Shown in pieces: positions 4,035 to 19,443 of a stretch of 30,679 nt of DNA (its first letter is position 1; the number at the start of each line of letters is the position of its first letter). The notes under the pieces are model-generated. The model was not told where the DNA came from, made no database searches, and worked only from the letters and a program-made list of their open reading frames with translations. Position numbers and translations under genes: made by a program. Source of the stretch: a bacterium (GTDB lineage: Bacteria > UBP6 > JAFGXH01); NCBI GenBank assembly GCA_027064085.1, contig JAMOQH010000158.1, positions 1 to 30,679 of the forward strand. The letters are read 5' to 3'.

Positions 4035-4060
4035 AAATGAGAATTTATGGAGTTTTAAAG

Positions 4061-6091
4061 ATGAAAACTATATATTTATTTATTTTTTTAATATCCTTTA
4101 ATATCTTAGCATCACAATCAGGTATCACTTTAAAAGATTTAAACAACAAAGATGTTACTATTGATGATTCTATAGGTAAAAAAGTTGTTTTATTAAATTT
4201 TTGGGCAACTTGGTGTGGTCCATGTAAAAAAGAATTACCAATAGTAAATAAACTTTATAATAAATATAAAAATAAAAATTTTACTGTAATTTCAATTTCT
4301 CTCGATGAGCCATCTGAATTTAATGATGTTAGATCTACAGTTTACGGGCTTGCTCTTGATTTCCCAGTTCTTCTTGACCCAAACAGTAAAGCGGCAGATT
4401 ACTATAATCCATCAAAAAATGCACCCTTTTCAATTTTGTATTCTTCAAATGGAGAAAAAATAAAAACATTTTTAGGTTTTACTTCTTCCGATGAGGAAGA
4501 ACTAGAAAATTTAATAAAAAAAGAAATAAACAAAAAAAATCAAACTAAAAACTCAGAATTTTCATGGAGATTTACAACTCTTGATACATATACGAGATAT
4601 TTTAAAGATGATACAAACAAAAACTTTAGTAATTACGAATTTTTGACAACAAGAAGCCATTTATCTACATTTTATAAAAAATATATTGCTTCTGTATCGT
4701 TTCATACAAATAACTTTCTTTCAAGCACTAGATATATTAGAGATAAGCATGGAGATAATTTATCAAATTATCGTTTAGAAAAAGTTTCATTAACGGGATA
4801 TATAGGTAAGCAAAATTATGTTTTGGGAGATTTTCATATTACTCAAGGAAAGGGAATTGCACTATCTATTCATAAAGAGGATGATTTAGGTATTGATACT
4901 ACTCTCCAAGGGCTTAATCTTGATTTAACCTATAAATTTATTAACCTTAATTTATTTGCAGGCTTTGTTAATAATACCAACCTTGATATTGACAATAACA
5001 AATTATATGATGATAAAAGAGATATAATTGCAGGAACAACAGTAAAACTTGATATTTCAGGTAAAATCATATTGTCAGGAAACTACAATGTAATAATGTT
5101 TAAAGAACCACCCTATGATGATGTATATAAAAAACCTGATAACTATAAACAACATAATTTTCAAGTTATGGGTGGAAACATTGAATATAATTACAAATCT
5201 AATTTAAAACTATACTTAGAGTCAGATTTTTTAATAGATAATTTTTATAATGAAGCAGAAAAGCTTGATTCTCCTTATGCTGTTTATGCATCAATTTTCT
5301 ATACATATAAAAAGTTTGTTTTTACTCAAGAATTTAAAAAATATAAAGATTTTCAAATTGGTTTTATTTCTGACAAAGGAAATTCCAAATGGAATTATGC
5401 TTTAAACAGTGTTTTTTATAATAATCCTACTACACTGGAGAGAGAAGGTGAAAAAATAAAAGATATTGCTAGTGATATTTGGGGAACAAGAACAAACATT
5501 AAATATAAATTAAGTAAAAATATTAAGCCATATTTAAATTATTTATATTCTATGTCCTATGCTCATCATGACAGAAGAGCTCATCATTTTTATATAGGTA
5601 GTGAATATTATTTTAACGAATTAAAAAGCAAAATCGACTTATCATTATCTTTTAGATTAGAAAAAGATACCATTTTTGATGACGCAAATAAATCAAATGA
5701 CATAGATAACTATTATGGTCTCGAATTTGATAATACATTTTATATAACTCCTTATTTATCATTAGACTTAAAGGGATATTATCATTTTACTCAAAGAAGT
5801 ATAAAACTTGAAAACAAAACTGATAATTTTGAGGATGCGGAGATAATGACTACTTTAACTTTATTTAAAGATTTCTTTATTTCTTATTTATATAATAGAT
5901 ATACATTTAGTGAAGAAGTAGGAAGCAAGCATAATTATCATGCGTTCAATGCTAAATATAGGTTTTTTAATGATAATTACTTTAGATTTTTCTATGGTAA
6001 TATTAGAGGTGGAATCAAATGCATTGGAGGTGTTTGTAAATACTATCCAGAATTTAATGGTTTTAAAGCAGAAGTATTACTTAGTTTTTAA
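4061..6091 (+). CDS. TlpA-like thioredoxin domain fused to an outer-membrane beta-barrel
   Basis: A two-part exported protein of 676 aa. Residues 1-18 are a signal peptide. Residues about 20-160 form a TlpA/ResA-type thioredoxin fold with 'NFWATWCGPCKKELP' (redox cysteines C52 and C55) and a cis-Pro-like 'NAPFSILY'. The remaining 500 or so residues are aromatic-rich alternating strands ending in 'EVLLSF', a C-terminal Phe typical of BAM-inserted outer-membrane barrels. The stretch 'GDFHITQGKGIAL..DLGIDTTLQG' resembles DUF6029-type barrels as I recall them. The only other cysteines are C654 and C659 in 'CIGGVC' near the last strand. The start at 4061 is chosen over 4037 because GGAG (4049-4052) sits 8 nt upstream and the predicted transcript begins at about 4041. 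The gene heads the lolA operon. The thioredoxin domain would face the periplasm. The substrate is unknown. Confidence 0.85.
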   Translation: MKTIYLFIFLISFNILASQSGITLKDLNNKDVTIDDSIGKKVVLLNFWATWCGPCKKELPIVNKLYNKYKNKNFTVISISLDEPSEFNDVRSTVYGLALDFPVLLDPNSKAADYYNPSKNAPFSILYSSNGEKIKTFLGFTSSDEEELENLIKKEINKKNQTKNSEFSWRFTTLDTYTRYFKDDTNKNFSNYEFLTTRSHLSTFYKKYIASVSFHTNNFLSSTRYIRDKHGDNLSNYRLEKVSLTGYIGKQNYVLGDFHITQGKGIALSIHKEDDLGIDTTLQGLNLDLTYKFINLNLFAGFVNNTNLDIDNNKLYDDKRDIIAGTTVKLDISGKIILSGNYNVIMFKEPPYDDVYKKPDNYKQHNFQVMGGNIEYNYKSNLKLYLESDFLIDNFYNEAEKLDSPYAVYASIFYTYKKFVFTQEFKKYKDFQIGFISDKGNSKWNYALNSVFYNNPTTLEREGEKIKDIASDIWGTRTNIKYKLSKNIKPYLNYLYSMSYAHHDRRAHHFYIGSEYYFNELKSKIDLSLSFRLEKDTIFDDANKSNDIDNYYGLEFDNTFYITPYLSLDLKGYYHFTQRSIKLENKTDNFEDAEIMTTLTLFKDFFISYLYNRYTFSEEVGSKHNYHAFNAKYRFFNDNYFRFFYGNIRGGIKCIGGVCKYYPEFNGFKAEVLLSF

Positions 6092-12626: not shown

Positions 12627-15600
12627 TTATTCACCCCAAATATCATTTGCGTCAGTTACTACACAATAACTGCCCATCCAAGTAATATCTGACATATACC
12701 ACCACCACCTAGAAGTTAGCTCTGATTTGGTATATTCTTTTATAACATCAAGCCCATTAGCACCTAAGCAATTAATTTTAATTTTAAGATTACTACCATT
12801 ATCACCATTATCATAGCCAAATACAGCAACTCTATAGATATCACCATTATTACTTCTTGGAACGGGAACATTAATATTTTCAGGTTTATCACAGTTAGTC
12901 TCTGTACAACCAAAACCCGGAATATTATCAATATCTAAATGAGGATTATCTTCAGAATTTCCACCATTCCACTCAAGTCCATTACCATCATCACAATTAT
13001 TATAGCCACAATCCTTACTAGATGAGCCACCTGATACTTCCCAGTTGCTATGTGCTGCACTTGAAGCACTTGGTACAAGCACATGTAAATCCATATCTGA
13101 AGCATTACTCCATGTTAGTTCTACATGTATAAAGTCTTCACTTACTCCATAAAACTGAACAGTACATGAATCACTTACAGTACCTTCATTTGCAGTAAAT
13201 CTAAGTAAGTAAGGATCATAGCTACCATCCTGTTTTGCTGATATTGTAAGAGGTTTGAATGTCAATGACTTATTAGTATTTAATATTCCACCAATGTTTT
13301 GATTTCCTGCCGGAGCTTCAATTAGCTCCCATTTATAAGTTGCATGTCCATTTTCACCTTGAACAGTTGCTGTAAAATTATAATCTGTTAAAGTAAAAGC
13401 TCTTCCATATCCATCAGGAGGATTTACTGGTCTTACCATAGGTGGCGCAGGACAAGTTACAGCTAAAGCAGAATAACAAGGAGTTTCATCAACTGTTCCA
13501 TCACAATCATCATCTAAACCATTACTGCATACTTCACCACGGCTATCTGCTGTTCCTGGTGTTCCATCACAAACAACGCTGTTATTGCTACATACATACC
13601 CACCCGTTCTTTTACAAATACCTAAGCCTACATTACAAGAATTTCCTAAGTTAAGTTCAGGATCAGTATCAGTAATAGTATCGCAATCATTATCTATACT
13701 ATCACCACATATTTCAGAACTAGGGTTTCCTGGTATCGCATTACACTTAACTGTATGATTCATATTATCACAATAGTAAGTTCCACTTGCTTTACAAGCA
13801 CCAATACCTGATTCACAAGCAAGTCCTAAACTAGGAACATCATCAACTAAACCATTACAATCATTGTCAAGTCCATCACCACAGAGTTCAGTAGTGCCTT
13901 GAGATGGAGTGGCATCACATACAACATCTGTATGGTCAGAAGAACAAATTGTTTTACCTCTTGTTTGACATTCTCCTAAACCACCATAACAATTTTGATT
14001 TAAATTAAATATTTCATCAATTCTGCCATTACAATTATTATCTTTACCATCACAAATTTCCTGATTTGGAGCCAAAGGAGCCAAAGGAGCCCCATTTGTA
14101 TCAACACATGTTACACCACCTTGGTTATTACAAGCATAAACACCAGATACTTTACATTCTCCAACACCAACAAAACAAGTTTCACCGATATTAAATCCAT
14201 TATCTACAACACCATCACAATCATCATCTTGCCCATTACATTGTTCTGCTTGAGGAAGAATTTGACCTTCACAATCACCCCAATATTCACCACCTACACA
14301 AGTAGTTGTTCCTTTTTTACATATACTTGTTCCTCCAATTACGGAATTTGGGGAACCAGTAAAACATTCTTCTGTACCTGAGCAGTTTCCACAATTATCT
14401 CCATCATCAACAGAACCATTACAATCATCATCTAAACCATTATTACAAATATCAGTATCCGATGTTTTAACACATTCAGGAGTTACATCACATATTTCGG
14501 GGTTATCAATTATATTATCACAGTTGTCATCAATACCATTTCCACATATTTCACTAGGAACATCTCCACAACCACCACAAGCATTTCCACCATTTTCAGG
14601 TAAAACATTATCAATAATTCCATCGCAGTCGTCATCTAATCCATTACATGTTTCCTTTGGTAATTCTCCACATTCACCACAGGCATTTGCAACTCCATCA
14701 TCAACAATACCATTACAGTTATTATCAATGCCATCACATGCTTCGGCAACAGGTTTTGATTCGCCCTGACAATCTGACCATTGACCCTGTTGGTTACAAA
14801 TCATAACACCTGATTCACAAATACCCTTTCCTAATTCATCAGGGTTTCCAGTATAACAAGACTTCTCTTCTCCTGGAGTACAACTACAGTTTTCATCTAC
14901 AGTTCCATTACAGTTATTATCTATACCGTCACCACAAGTATCATTATTTTGAGCTACTACTTCTCCAATACACTCAGTTCCCCAAGTTCCTTCTGAAGAA
15001 CATAAATTATATCCAGCTTTACAAATTCCAACACCAATATTATTACCAGCGGTATTACAATCTCTTCTATCTCCAGAATTACATTCTGTTTGAGTATTAC
15101 ATCTATTTTCTTGTTTGTCTATACTACCATTACAATCACTATCTTTATTTAAACATAAATCATTTATGGGAAGAACTTGCCCTAAACACTCTCCTGACCA
15201 TTCATGATTTTCTTTACAAACTTCGGTTCCACTTTTACAAACACCTTTACCTGCAGTATTTTCTGGCCCATTATAACAATCTCTTGTTTCACCAATAGTA
15301 GTGCAACCACAGTCTTCATCAACATGACCATTACAATTATCATCAATTCCATTTCCACAAATTTCAGTTACAGGTTTTACTTCATTTTTACATATATAAT
15401 CCCATTTTCCTTGTTCATTACAAATAATTACACCATCTTTACAAGCACCAACATTTCTTGTAGAGCTTCCACCTGTATAGCAATCCTTTGTTTCATTAGC
15501 CGTACAATCTGTTACGGGAGTATCTAATTGACATTTACCGCTCTCACAAACATATCCCTCTTCACAAGGATTATCAGTACTACAGCCTGTAGACGCCTCT

Positions 15601-15659
15601 GGTTTATTACAGCCCCAAAATATAAATAAAGTAAAAACTAAAAATAGATATTTATACAT
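12627..15659 (-). CDS. Giant Cys-rich MopE-like lipoprotein with metal-binding repeats
   Basis: A surface protein of 1010 aa. A signal peptide ending 'FIFWGC' suggests lipidation at C17. About 650 residues follow with twelve 'CxNGxDxDCDGxxD' units, the putative metal-binding motif of MopE-type proteins (compare 'CNGLDDDCDGIID' and 'CGDGIDNNCNGTVDE'). They alternate with 'CYTG..GxCKxGxxxC..G.W..C.G' linkers. A PKD/Ig-like segment comes next ('YNFTATVQGENGHATYKWELIEAP'). A C-terminal domain of about 160 residues then begins 'VELTWSNASDMDLHVLVP', a YfaP-like type common in myxobacterial secreted proteins. The Asp-rich loops suggest Ca or other metal binding. The start at 15659, rather than 15797, is fixed by GGAGG 5-6 nt upstream, by the signal peptide, and by a promoter lying between the two candidate starts. 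Ligand and role are not known. Confidence 0.85.
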   Translation of the reverse strand: MYKYLFLVFTLFIFWGCNKPEASTGCSTDNPCEEGYVCESGKCQLDTPVTDCTANETKDCYTGGSSTRNVGACKDGVIICNEQGKWDYICKNEVKPVTEICGNGIDDNCNGHVDEDCGCTTIGETRDCYNGPENTAGKGVCKSGTEVCKENHEWSGECLGQVLPINDLCLNKDSDCNGSIDKQENRCNTQTECNSGDRRDCNTAGNNIGVGICKAGYNLCSSEGTWGTECIGEVVAQNNDTCGDGIDNNCNGTVDENCSCTPGEEKSCYTGNPDELGKGICESGVMICNQQGQWSDCQGESKPVAEACDGIDNNCNGIVDDGVANACGECGELPKETCNGLDDDCDGIIDNVLPENGGNACGGCGDVPSEICGNGIDDNCDNIIDNPEICDVTPECVKTSDTDICNNGLDDDCNGSVDDGDNCGNCSGTEECFTGSPNSVIGGTSICKKGTTTCVGGEYWGDCEGQILPQAEQCNGQDDDCDGVVDNGFNIGETCFVGVGECKVSGVYACNNQGGVTCVDTNGAPLAPLAPNQEICDGKDNNCNGRIDEIFNLNQNCYGGLGECQTRGKTICSSDHTDVVCDATPSQGTTELCGDGLDNDCNGLVDDVPSLGLACESGIGACKASGTYYCDNMNHTVKCNAIPGNPSSEICGDSIDNDCDTITDTDPELNLGNSCNVGLGICKRTGGYVCSNNSVVCDGTPGTADSRGEVCSNGLDDDCDGTVDETPCYSALAVTCPAPPMVRPVNPPDGYGRAFTLTDYNFTATVQGENGHATYKWELIEAPAGNQNIGGILNTNKSLTFKPLTISAKQDGSYDPYLLRFTANEGTVSDSCTVQFYGVSEDFIHVELTWSNASDMDLHVLVPSASSAAHSNWEVSGGSSSKDCGYNNCDDGNGLEWNGGNSEDNPHLDIDNIPGFGCTETNCDKPENINVPVPRSNNGDIYRVAVFGYDNGDNGSNLKIKINCLGANGLDVIKEYTKSELTSRWWWYMSDITWMGSYCVVTDANDIWGE
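14071..14091 (-). repeat. Short in-frame tandem repeat (9-bp unit)
   Basis: Two and a third copies of GCCAAAGGA, coding for Ala-Pro-Leu repeats (APLAPLAP) in one linker of the MopE-like protein. It is probably a replication-slippage site. It preserves the frame. Confidence 0.7.
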
Positions 15660-15680
15660 ATTTCCTCCAAAAATCAATAC

Positions 15681-15709
15681 ATAATACCTCAATTTAACAT
15701 TTTTGTCCA
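15681..15709 (-). promoter_or_regulatory. Promoter of the MopE-like gene
   Basis: Minus-strand -35 TGGACA (plus 15704-15709), a 17-bp spacer and -10 TATTAT (plus 15681-15686), each one base from consensus. Transcription would begin about 15 nt upstream of the ATG at 15659. That excludes the longer reading frame starting at 15797. Confidence 0.6.
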
Positions 15710-15769
15710 ATAATTCATCATTGTTTTGTCTAAAAATACTATAAAACAAAAGTATATTAGTCATATTTT

Positions 15770-15797
15770 TGCAACATTGTTGCATTTTTTGCAACAA
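15770..15797. promoter_or_regulatory. TGCAACA palindrome plus third half-site (operator candidate)
   Basis: A perfect palindrome TGCAACA-T-TGTTGCA (15770-15784) is followed by another direct TGCAACA (15790-15796). It lies in the divergent region between the MopE-like gene and the DjlA-like gene, next to possible -10 elements for the latter (TATTAT/TATATT at 15798-15806). No coding or terminator function explains it. A repressor or activator site is inferred. Confidence 0.5.
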
Positions 15798-18585: not shown

Positions 18586-19443
18586 ATGAGATACTTTATT
18601 CTTATAATATTTATACTTTTAAGTTTTACATATTCATGTAGAAATGAAGATGGTATATATAATGGAAAAATTGAATGTAAAAATGATAGTCATTGTAGTA
18701 AAGGAAAAATTTGTTCAAGATTAGGACAATGTATACCAGACAAAAGATGTTATTCTGATACTCAATGCCTAGAAACTGAAGTTTGTAATTTAGAAATAGG
18801 CTTATGTGTTTCAAAAGAAAGATGTGAAACCGACCATGATTGCAAAAATGATTTAAAATGCATACTAGGTGTTTGTAGTGGTTGTCAAACAAATGATGAT
18901 TGTACCGCTCCTGATGTTTGTAGTTCAGGAGCTTGTTTAAGCCCTCAAAACAATTGCAAGGAAATCACTTGTCAAAAAGATGAAATATGTAATCCAATCA
19001 CTCAAAAATGTCAAAAAATAAGAGAAGATTGTAATACAGATAAAGATTGCTCGTTTGGAAGAAAATGTGAAAATAATAAATGTACAATACTAAAAGATGG
19101 CTGTACGAATAATAGTGATTGCAAATATAATCAAGAATGTAAACTTGGAGTATGTGTAGGTTGTGAAAGTGACCAAGACTGCAAAGATACAAGCAGATGT
19201 ATATTTGGAGCTTGTATTAGTATTGGTATTGATTTATGTACAAATATTGAATGCCCTCAATATGAAATATGTGACCCTCAAACTGGACAATGTTACCTTG
19301 AAACAGGAGAATGTAGAGATGATCTTGAATGTAGACCAGGTACAACATGCCAAGCAACAATGTGCATGGGTTGCGTTGATGAATCTTCATGTCACCCTAA
19401 TATGAAATGTGTTTATGGAATGTGTTTAGCCAATGTTAATTAA
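18586..19443 (+). CDS. Cys-rich lipoprotein with 'DxDC' repeats
   Basis: The 285-aa product has a type II signal peptide (MRYFILIIFILLSFTYSC; lipidated Cys at 18). It then consists of repeats of about 25-50 residues built on 'C.xDxDC....C..G.C' ('CKNDSHCSKGKICSRLGQC', 'CESDQDCKDTSRCIFGAC', 'CQTNDDCTAPDVCSSGAC'). Such disulfide-rich modules are common in secreted proteins of Myxococcota and their relatives. Roughly one residue in eight is Cys, so folding needs periplasmic oxidation. The start has GGGAG about 10 nt upstream. The 3' end overlaps the YbbR-like gene by 11 bp, an odd pairing of a surface protein with a c-di-AMP/cell-wall gene. Function not assigned. Confidence 0.8.
   Translation: MRYFILIIFILLSFTYSCRNEDGIYNGKIECKNDSHCSKGKICSRLGQCIPDKRCYSDTQCLETEVCNLEIGLCVSKERCETDHDCKNDLKCILGVCSGCQTNDDCTAPDVCSSGACLSPQNNCKEITCQKDEICNPITQKCQKIREDCNTDKDCSFGRKCENNKCTILKDGCTNNSDCKYNQECKLGVCVGCESDQDCKDTSRCIFGACISIGIDLCTNIECPQYEICDPQTGQCYLETGECRDDLECRPGTTCQATMCMGCVDESSCHPNMKCVYGMCLANVN

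Follow-up and report, generated by a model that had tools for sequence, protein, structure and literature searches.

A TlpA-like thioredoxin domain fused to a DUF6029 outer-membrane barrel, and its possible role as a thiol-redox module

Organization of the fused gene

We analysed a stretch of 30,679 nucleotides of bacterial DNA, called the window below. Its ORF at 4061-6091 on the positive strand encodes a protein of 676 residues in which a TlpA-like thioredoxin domain is fused to a predicted DUF6029 outer-membrane barrel. The protein contains four cysteines in all, at positions 52, 55, 654 and 659. An alternative in-frame ATG lies upstream at 4037; the start at 4061 was favoured because of the GGAG that precedes it and the signal peptide that it opens. 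The features of this region are:

4049..4052 (+): GGAG, likely ribosome-binding site, 8 nt before the ATG at 4061 (from the sequence)
4061..4114 (+): signal peptide MKTIYLFIFLISFNILAS, residues 1-18, without lipobox (from the sequence; putative cleavage site)
4124..4531 (+): TlpA/ResA-like thioredoxin-fold domain, residues 22-157 (Pfam, PDB sequence matches, AlphaFold/Foldseek)
4214..4225 (+): redox motif C52-G-P-C55, preceded by W51 (both cysteines in 64/64 linked TlpA domains that have the region)
4424..4426 (+): Pro122, the expected cis-proline facing the CxxC (proline in 65/65 linked TlpA domains)
4559..6088 (+): DUF6029 outer-membrane beta-barrel of about 24 predicted strands, residues 167-676 (PF19494, AlphaFold models)

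Thioredoxin domain

TlpA, ResA and DsbE are thiol-disulfide oxidoreductases of cytochrome c maturation and sporulation, and the N-terminal domain of the fused protein has the fold, the CxxC motif and the cis-proline in common with them. Residues 22-151 matched the Pfam families AhpC-TSA (1.1e-18), Redoxin (8.6e-17) and Thioredoxin_8 (3.4e-13). The best PDB sequence match of the domain was the ResA-like 4nmu (1.1e-19), and its model matched ResA in Foldseek with an E value of about 1e-9. The NCBIfam scores stayed under the curated cut-offs of all three named families (ResA, 86 bits against 170; TlpA, 56 against 230; DsbE, 32.7 against 123), and the domain is therefore regarded as a relative, not a named member, of the ResA/TlpA/DsbE group. 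Unlike these enzymes, it lacks an inner-membrane anchor and is joined to an outer-membrane barrel, and the TlpA proteins paired with DUF6029 form a distinct orthologous group (see below). The motif G[YF]xPG, present in 42 of the 65 linked TlpA domains, was considered as a signature but is not claimed as one, since the comparison covered only some of the paralogues.

Predicted barrel fold and topology

Residues 160-676 matched DUF6029 (PF19494) at 4.5e-9, with 35.9 bits against a cut-off of 27, over positions 21-538 of the 538 in the model. AlphaFold2 placed a thioredoxin fold at residues 23-157 and about 24 long membrane strands at 167-673 (pLDDT 76.6 and pTM 0.70 for the full length; 75.6 and 0.71 for the barrel alone). 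The predicted protein combines a signal peptide, an even-stranded antiparallel barrel and a C-terminal aromatic residue, Phe676, as outer-membrane barrels do. The profile match and the modelled barrel thus confirmed the fusion that an earlier note had proposed from the sequence alone.

The topology was deduced from the strand list of the AlphaFold2 models. The turns after even strands had 2, 2, 2, 3, 3, 2, 5, 4, 2, 3 and 3 residues, and the loops after odd strands 11, 16, 19, 15, 19, 11, 42, 2, 2, 4, 7 and 16. Since even-to-odd turns never exceed five residues and the long loops are all odd-to-even, both termini and the thioredoxin domain are predicted to be periplasmic; by the same topology C654 and C659 would lie in the last extracellular loop.

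In a fold search with the barrel alone, the Z scores ran from 16.8 to 14.5 among the best 50 matches and were much the same for large porins, for ushers and for TonB receptors; as none of these was an outlier, no known barrel family was singled out. Alignments over the full length of the barrel were with 24-strand ushers, and OprD-type porins scored alike. With the full-length model, the best 50 matches listed were thioredoxin-fold proteins only. Wzi (2ynk) ranked 45th in Foldseek, with a TM score of 0.32, amid many unrelated barrels.

Conserved loops and the C-terminal cysteine pair

Conservation was assessed in 70 aligned barrels, in which the following segments stood out:

4823..4912 (+): LGDF..GKGIALS...DDLGIDTTLQG, residues 255-284, comprising strand 5, loop L3 and strand 6 (conservation; predicted topology)
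6005..6052 (+): predicted last extracellular loop L12, RGGIKCIGGVCKYYPE, residues 649-664 (mean conservation 0.64, the highest among the barrel segments)
6020..6037 (+): cysteine pair C654-IGGV-C659, 23 and 18 positions before the C-terminus (-23/-18; 70/70 aligned barrels)

The CxxxxC of the homologues was nearly always at the same distance from the C-terminus, within a last-loop consensus RGGxxCxGGxCRxxPxFxG, and the residues conserved near it were G646, G651, G657, F665, G667 and R/K660. The next-best conserved segments, at 0.47-0.50, were strand 5, strand 24, strand 13 and loop L3; G256, G265, D279 and G284 of the strand 5 to strand 6 region were kept in 64 to 70 of the 70 barrels. Note that many of the homologues were detected through their C-terminal stretch, a bias that could favour the pair. 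For at least 15 the match came only from N-terminal stretches (about 1e-11 or better), and these have the pair as well; the invariance of the pair is therefore not merely an effect of the search. The special role that the earlier note had assigned to these two cysteines gains support from this result.

In the model the two cysteines are at the tip of a small predicted hairpin within residues 649-664, where pLDDT falls below 50 at 654-660. The conserved GG and P-x-F-x-G that flank the pair coincide with breaks, which suggest that the modelled hairpin is bent. Extracellular loops are usually the most variable parts of such barrels, so a conserved surface at L3, L7 and L12 is suggestive of a functional site. 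In loop L7, residue 457 of the window's protein (nt 5429-5431) is Thr; 69 of the 70 barrels have Pro in this column, where a PP motif has its second residue.

Distribution and gene pairing

Of 386 genomes drawn from across the bacteria, 75 had a DUF6029 match above the cut-off; 14 control genomes had none, and in the window's phylum 27 of 28 genomes had it. Most members of the family are stand-alone barrels with a separate TlpA gene upstream, unlike the fused form of the window. A TlpA-like gene was either fused (4 loci) or located upstream on the same strand (61 loci) in 65 of 74 DUF6029 loci, and this adjacency spans about 40 families. The earlier note had mentioned barrels of this type near TlpA genes in other phyla, which proved to be both right and general. 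The upstream gene was within 150 nt in 53 of the 61 cases, most commonly with a 4-nt overlap of the ATGA type; a few large negative gaps correspond to over-extended start codons.

The linked TlpA of genome G034 was compared with 11 other genomes, and in all 11 the best match was the genome's own linked or fused TlpA or, in G351, a TlpA on the side of the Omp28 genes, 2-3 kb from them. The query thus picked this protein ahead of several paralogues, which argues that the linked TlpA is a dedicated orthologous group. Most loci that lack an adjacent TlpA have nevertheless retained one. In one genus of the window's phylum (g3) an orthologue with 63-67% identity was found either on the DUF6029 contig, some 15-27 kb from DUF6029 in most genomes checked, or elsewhere in the genome. 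Three genomes without an adjacent TlpA (G108, G374 and G012) presented, directly upstream of DUF6029, a lipoprotein with a CxxC motif (GCLSC/GCPFC). Very large lipoprotein-like genes with many cysteines were also observed in g3 (L073:2969-7150, 77 Cys; L069:9172-12429, 36 Cys); they end beside DUF6029 where the TlpA gene is missing.

The fused form was found in three genomes of the window's family and in G033 and G052. The two family relatives share the fusion at 40-42% identity, and hence it is not an assembly accident. In a tree of the barrels alone, fusions appeared in three places with good support, each amid unfused relatives; about three separate fusion events are the best reading of this tree, which has some long branches, rather than a certainty. 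In related families of the window's phylum, most linked TlpA proteins have a lipobox in place of the fusion. The two features seem to be alternative means of holding TlpA at the outer membrane, in agreement with the tethering that had been suggested for the window's protein.

A tie of the module to the flagellar genes upstream or to LolA downstream was rejected as a general feature, since by eye the neighbours of the fused gene in L055 and L056 look different. Elsewhere in the window, a 1056-residue protein with five putative copper-binding motifs of the MopE type (PF11617, 121 bits) is encoded at 12627-15797 (-), and a Cys-rich protein with a DUF7107 match at 18586-19443 (+). The latter is probably one of the Cys-rich surface proteins whose disulfides the earlier note had connected with the fusion; we found no evidence for a link between the module and such proteins of the window.

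Further thioredoxin-like neighbours

Of 75 matches to Omp28 (PF11551), 33, in 23 genomes, were no more than 6 kb from DUF6029, as compared with 0.31 expected. Several of the linked Omp28-like proteins have type IX sorting tails or are lipoprotein-like, and they have motifs of the WCGYC type. A cluster of an Omp28-like secreted thioredoxin-fold gene with TlpA and DUF6029 recurred in other phyla (L071, L126, L131, L158 and others). One genome (G085) has two DUF6029 copies (L117 and L135), one with TlpA and the other beside two Omp28-like genes without TlpA. NCBIfam includes a family of Omp28-related selenoproteins, and the UxxC motif listed for it (PMC13188914) supports redox activity.

Upstream of the linked TlpA, and adjoining it, most families of the window's phylum have a gene for a lipoprotein thioredoxin; neither this protein nor Omp28 was matched in the genome of the window or in those of its two relatives from the family. 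Porphyromonas gingivalis encodes an Omp28 lipoprotein (PG_2173), an uncharacterised protein found in vesicles (PG_2174) and a thioredoxin-like protein of known structure (PG_2175; 2m72). These three genes may be a cultured example of the module, with PG_2174 as candidate DUF6029.

Possible function of the module

We tentatively propose that TlpA-DUF6029, widespread as a pair of genes and present in the window in fused form, is a dedicated outer-membrane thiol-redox module, with thiol-disulfide exchange as its likeliest job; we hold this to be plausible, if somewhat short of probable. The TlpA-like thioredoxin would be anchored to the outer membrane on its periplasmic side, where it would maintain the proper redox state of the cysteine pair of the barrel or of a substrate crossing the barrel. 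The pair would act on surface substrates or on thioredoxin-like proteins, such as the Omp28-like proteins and the lipoprotein thioredoxins. We infer that electrons pass between the two cysteine pairs, and in which direction they do so. The predicted positions of the pair, extracellular, and of the thioredoxin domain, periplasmic, count against direct exchange in the mature protein; the gap might be bridged by a lumenal hairpin, by the thioredoxin domain entering the wide barrel or by a small thiol carrier. The earlier suggestion that the C-terminal pair is the internal partner of TlpA is supported as regards functional coupling and not supported in its geometry: it had put CIGGVC on the periplasmic side beside CGPC, at odds with the predicted last extracellular loop unless the hairpin is lumenal. 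A position on the extracellular side was what the note itself had named as speaking against its idea.

DsbD and CcdA pass reducing equivalents through a cysteine pair in a membrane protein to thioredoxin-like partners. They are alpha-helical inner-membrane proteins, unrelated to the window's barrel, and we know of no outer-membrane counterpart. TlpA-DUF6029 could possibly be such a counterpart in many phyla, conveying redox equivalents, reducing or oxidising, via the barrel to the surface cysteines and thence to extracellular thioredoxin-like proteins, although we consider this more specific proposal to be on the unlikely side. A relay to the surface would account for the surface thioredoxins as well as for the fusion and the permanent anchoring. 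Reductases of the DsbD/CcdA type (DsbD_TM) were present in most genomes with DUF6029 and in most without it alike; this co-occurrence is uninformative and leaves the reducing direction without support from that side.

The cysteines of LptD, an outer-membrane barrel, need a periplasmic thiol enzyme (DsbA/DsbC). By analogy, C654 and C659 could form a structural disulfide of the last hairpin, made or repaired by the linked TlpA before barrel insertion, an explanation that seems rather unlikely to us. The invariant pair has, in the model, a spacing suited to a cross-strand hairpin disulfide, the last strands bear the assembly signal, and the thioredoxin would be in the right compartment prior to insertion. 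However, a permanent 1:1 fusion and lipid-anchored TlpA proteins exceed the needs of a transient foldase, the conservation reaches well beyond the cysteines (G646, G651, G657, F665, G667 and R/K660), and the second thioredoxins and Omp28-like genes would be left unexplained. The analogy itself is partial: the LptD cysteines are periplasmic and their catalyst is general, neither fused nor co-transcribed, whereas the barrel cysteines of the window are predicted to be extracellular and the thioredoxin is fused.

Alternatively, a thiol-, metal- or disulfide-containing molecule may cross the barrel, with L3, L7, L12 and the cysteine pair binding it at the mouth and TlpA acting on it in the periplasm. 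The clustering of conserved residues in these predicted extracellular loops, as in substrate-binding porins, would suit a substrate channel, as would the resemblance of the modelled fold to large transport barrels (OprD/Occ, ushers, BtuB). The only naming of DUF6029 in the open-licence papers searched was in work on polysaccharide porins, in which Wzi-type barrels near OPX genes showed HHpred similarity to it (PMC9603273). Among the recurrent neighbour clusters listed around DUF6029 loci, the OPX family was absent. We judge a channel of this kind unlikely; against it, no recurrent substrate gene was seen in the neighbourhoods and the recurrent linked families are thioredoxin-like. It is highly improbable that the neighbourhood involves no functional coupling at all, with an accidental fusion and a cysteine pair of unrelated purpose: in g3 genomes TlpA and DUF6029 have become separated within one contig, but the adjacency in about 40 families, the apparently three separate fusions and the orthologous group formed by the linked TlpA all speak against it.

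Meaning for envelope biology

With these data DUF6029, a family without assigned function, gains a dedicated partner enzyme, an invariant motif of redox type and a testable role. Nothing was found in the open-licence literature on a TlpA-DUF6029 pair or fusion, on the invariant cysteine pair, on a link between Omp28 and thioredoxin or on a thiol relay across the outer membrane. Omp28 and HBP35 of P. gingivalis have thioredoxin-like domains and are located at the surface or in the outer membrane; they are not barrels, and would be candidate partners rather than homologues of the window's protein. HBP35 shows activity in vitro; the authors of that study, who state that what its thioredoxin domain does at the surface is unknown, suggest that it maintains the redox state there (PMC2907840). 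The module bears on how such surface thioredoxin-like proteins of bacteria stay redox-active. If the proposal is true, the passage of thiol chemistry through an outer-membrane barrel would add a new type of function to those of the envelope.
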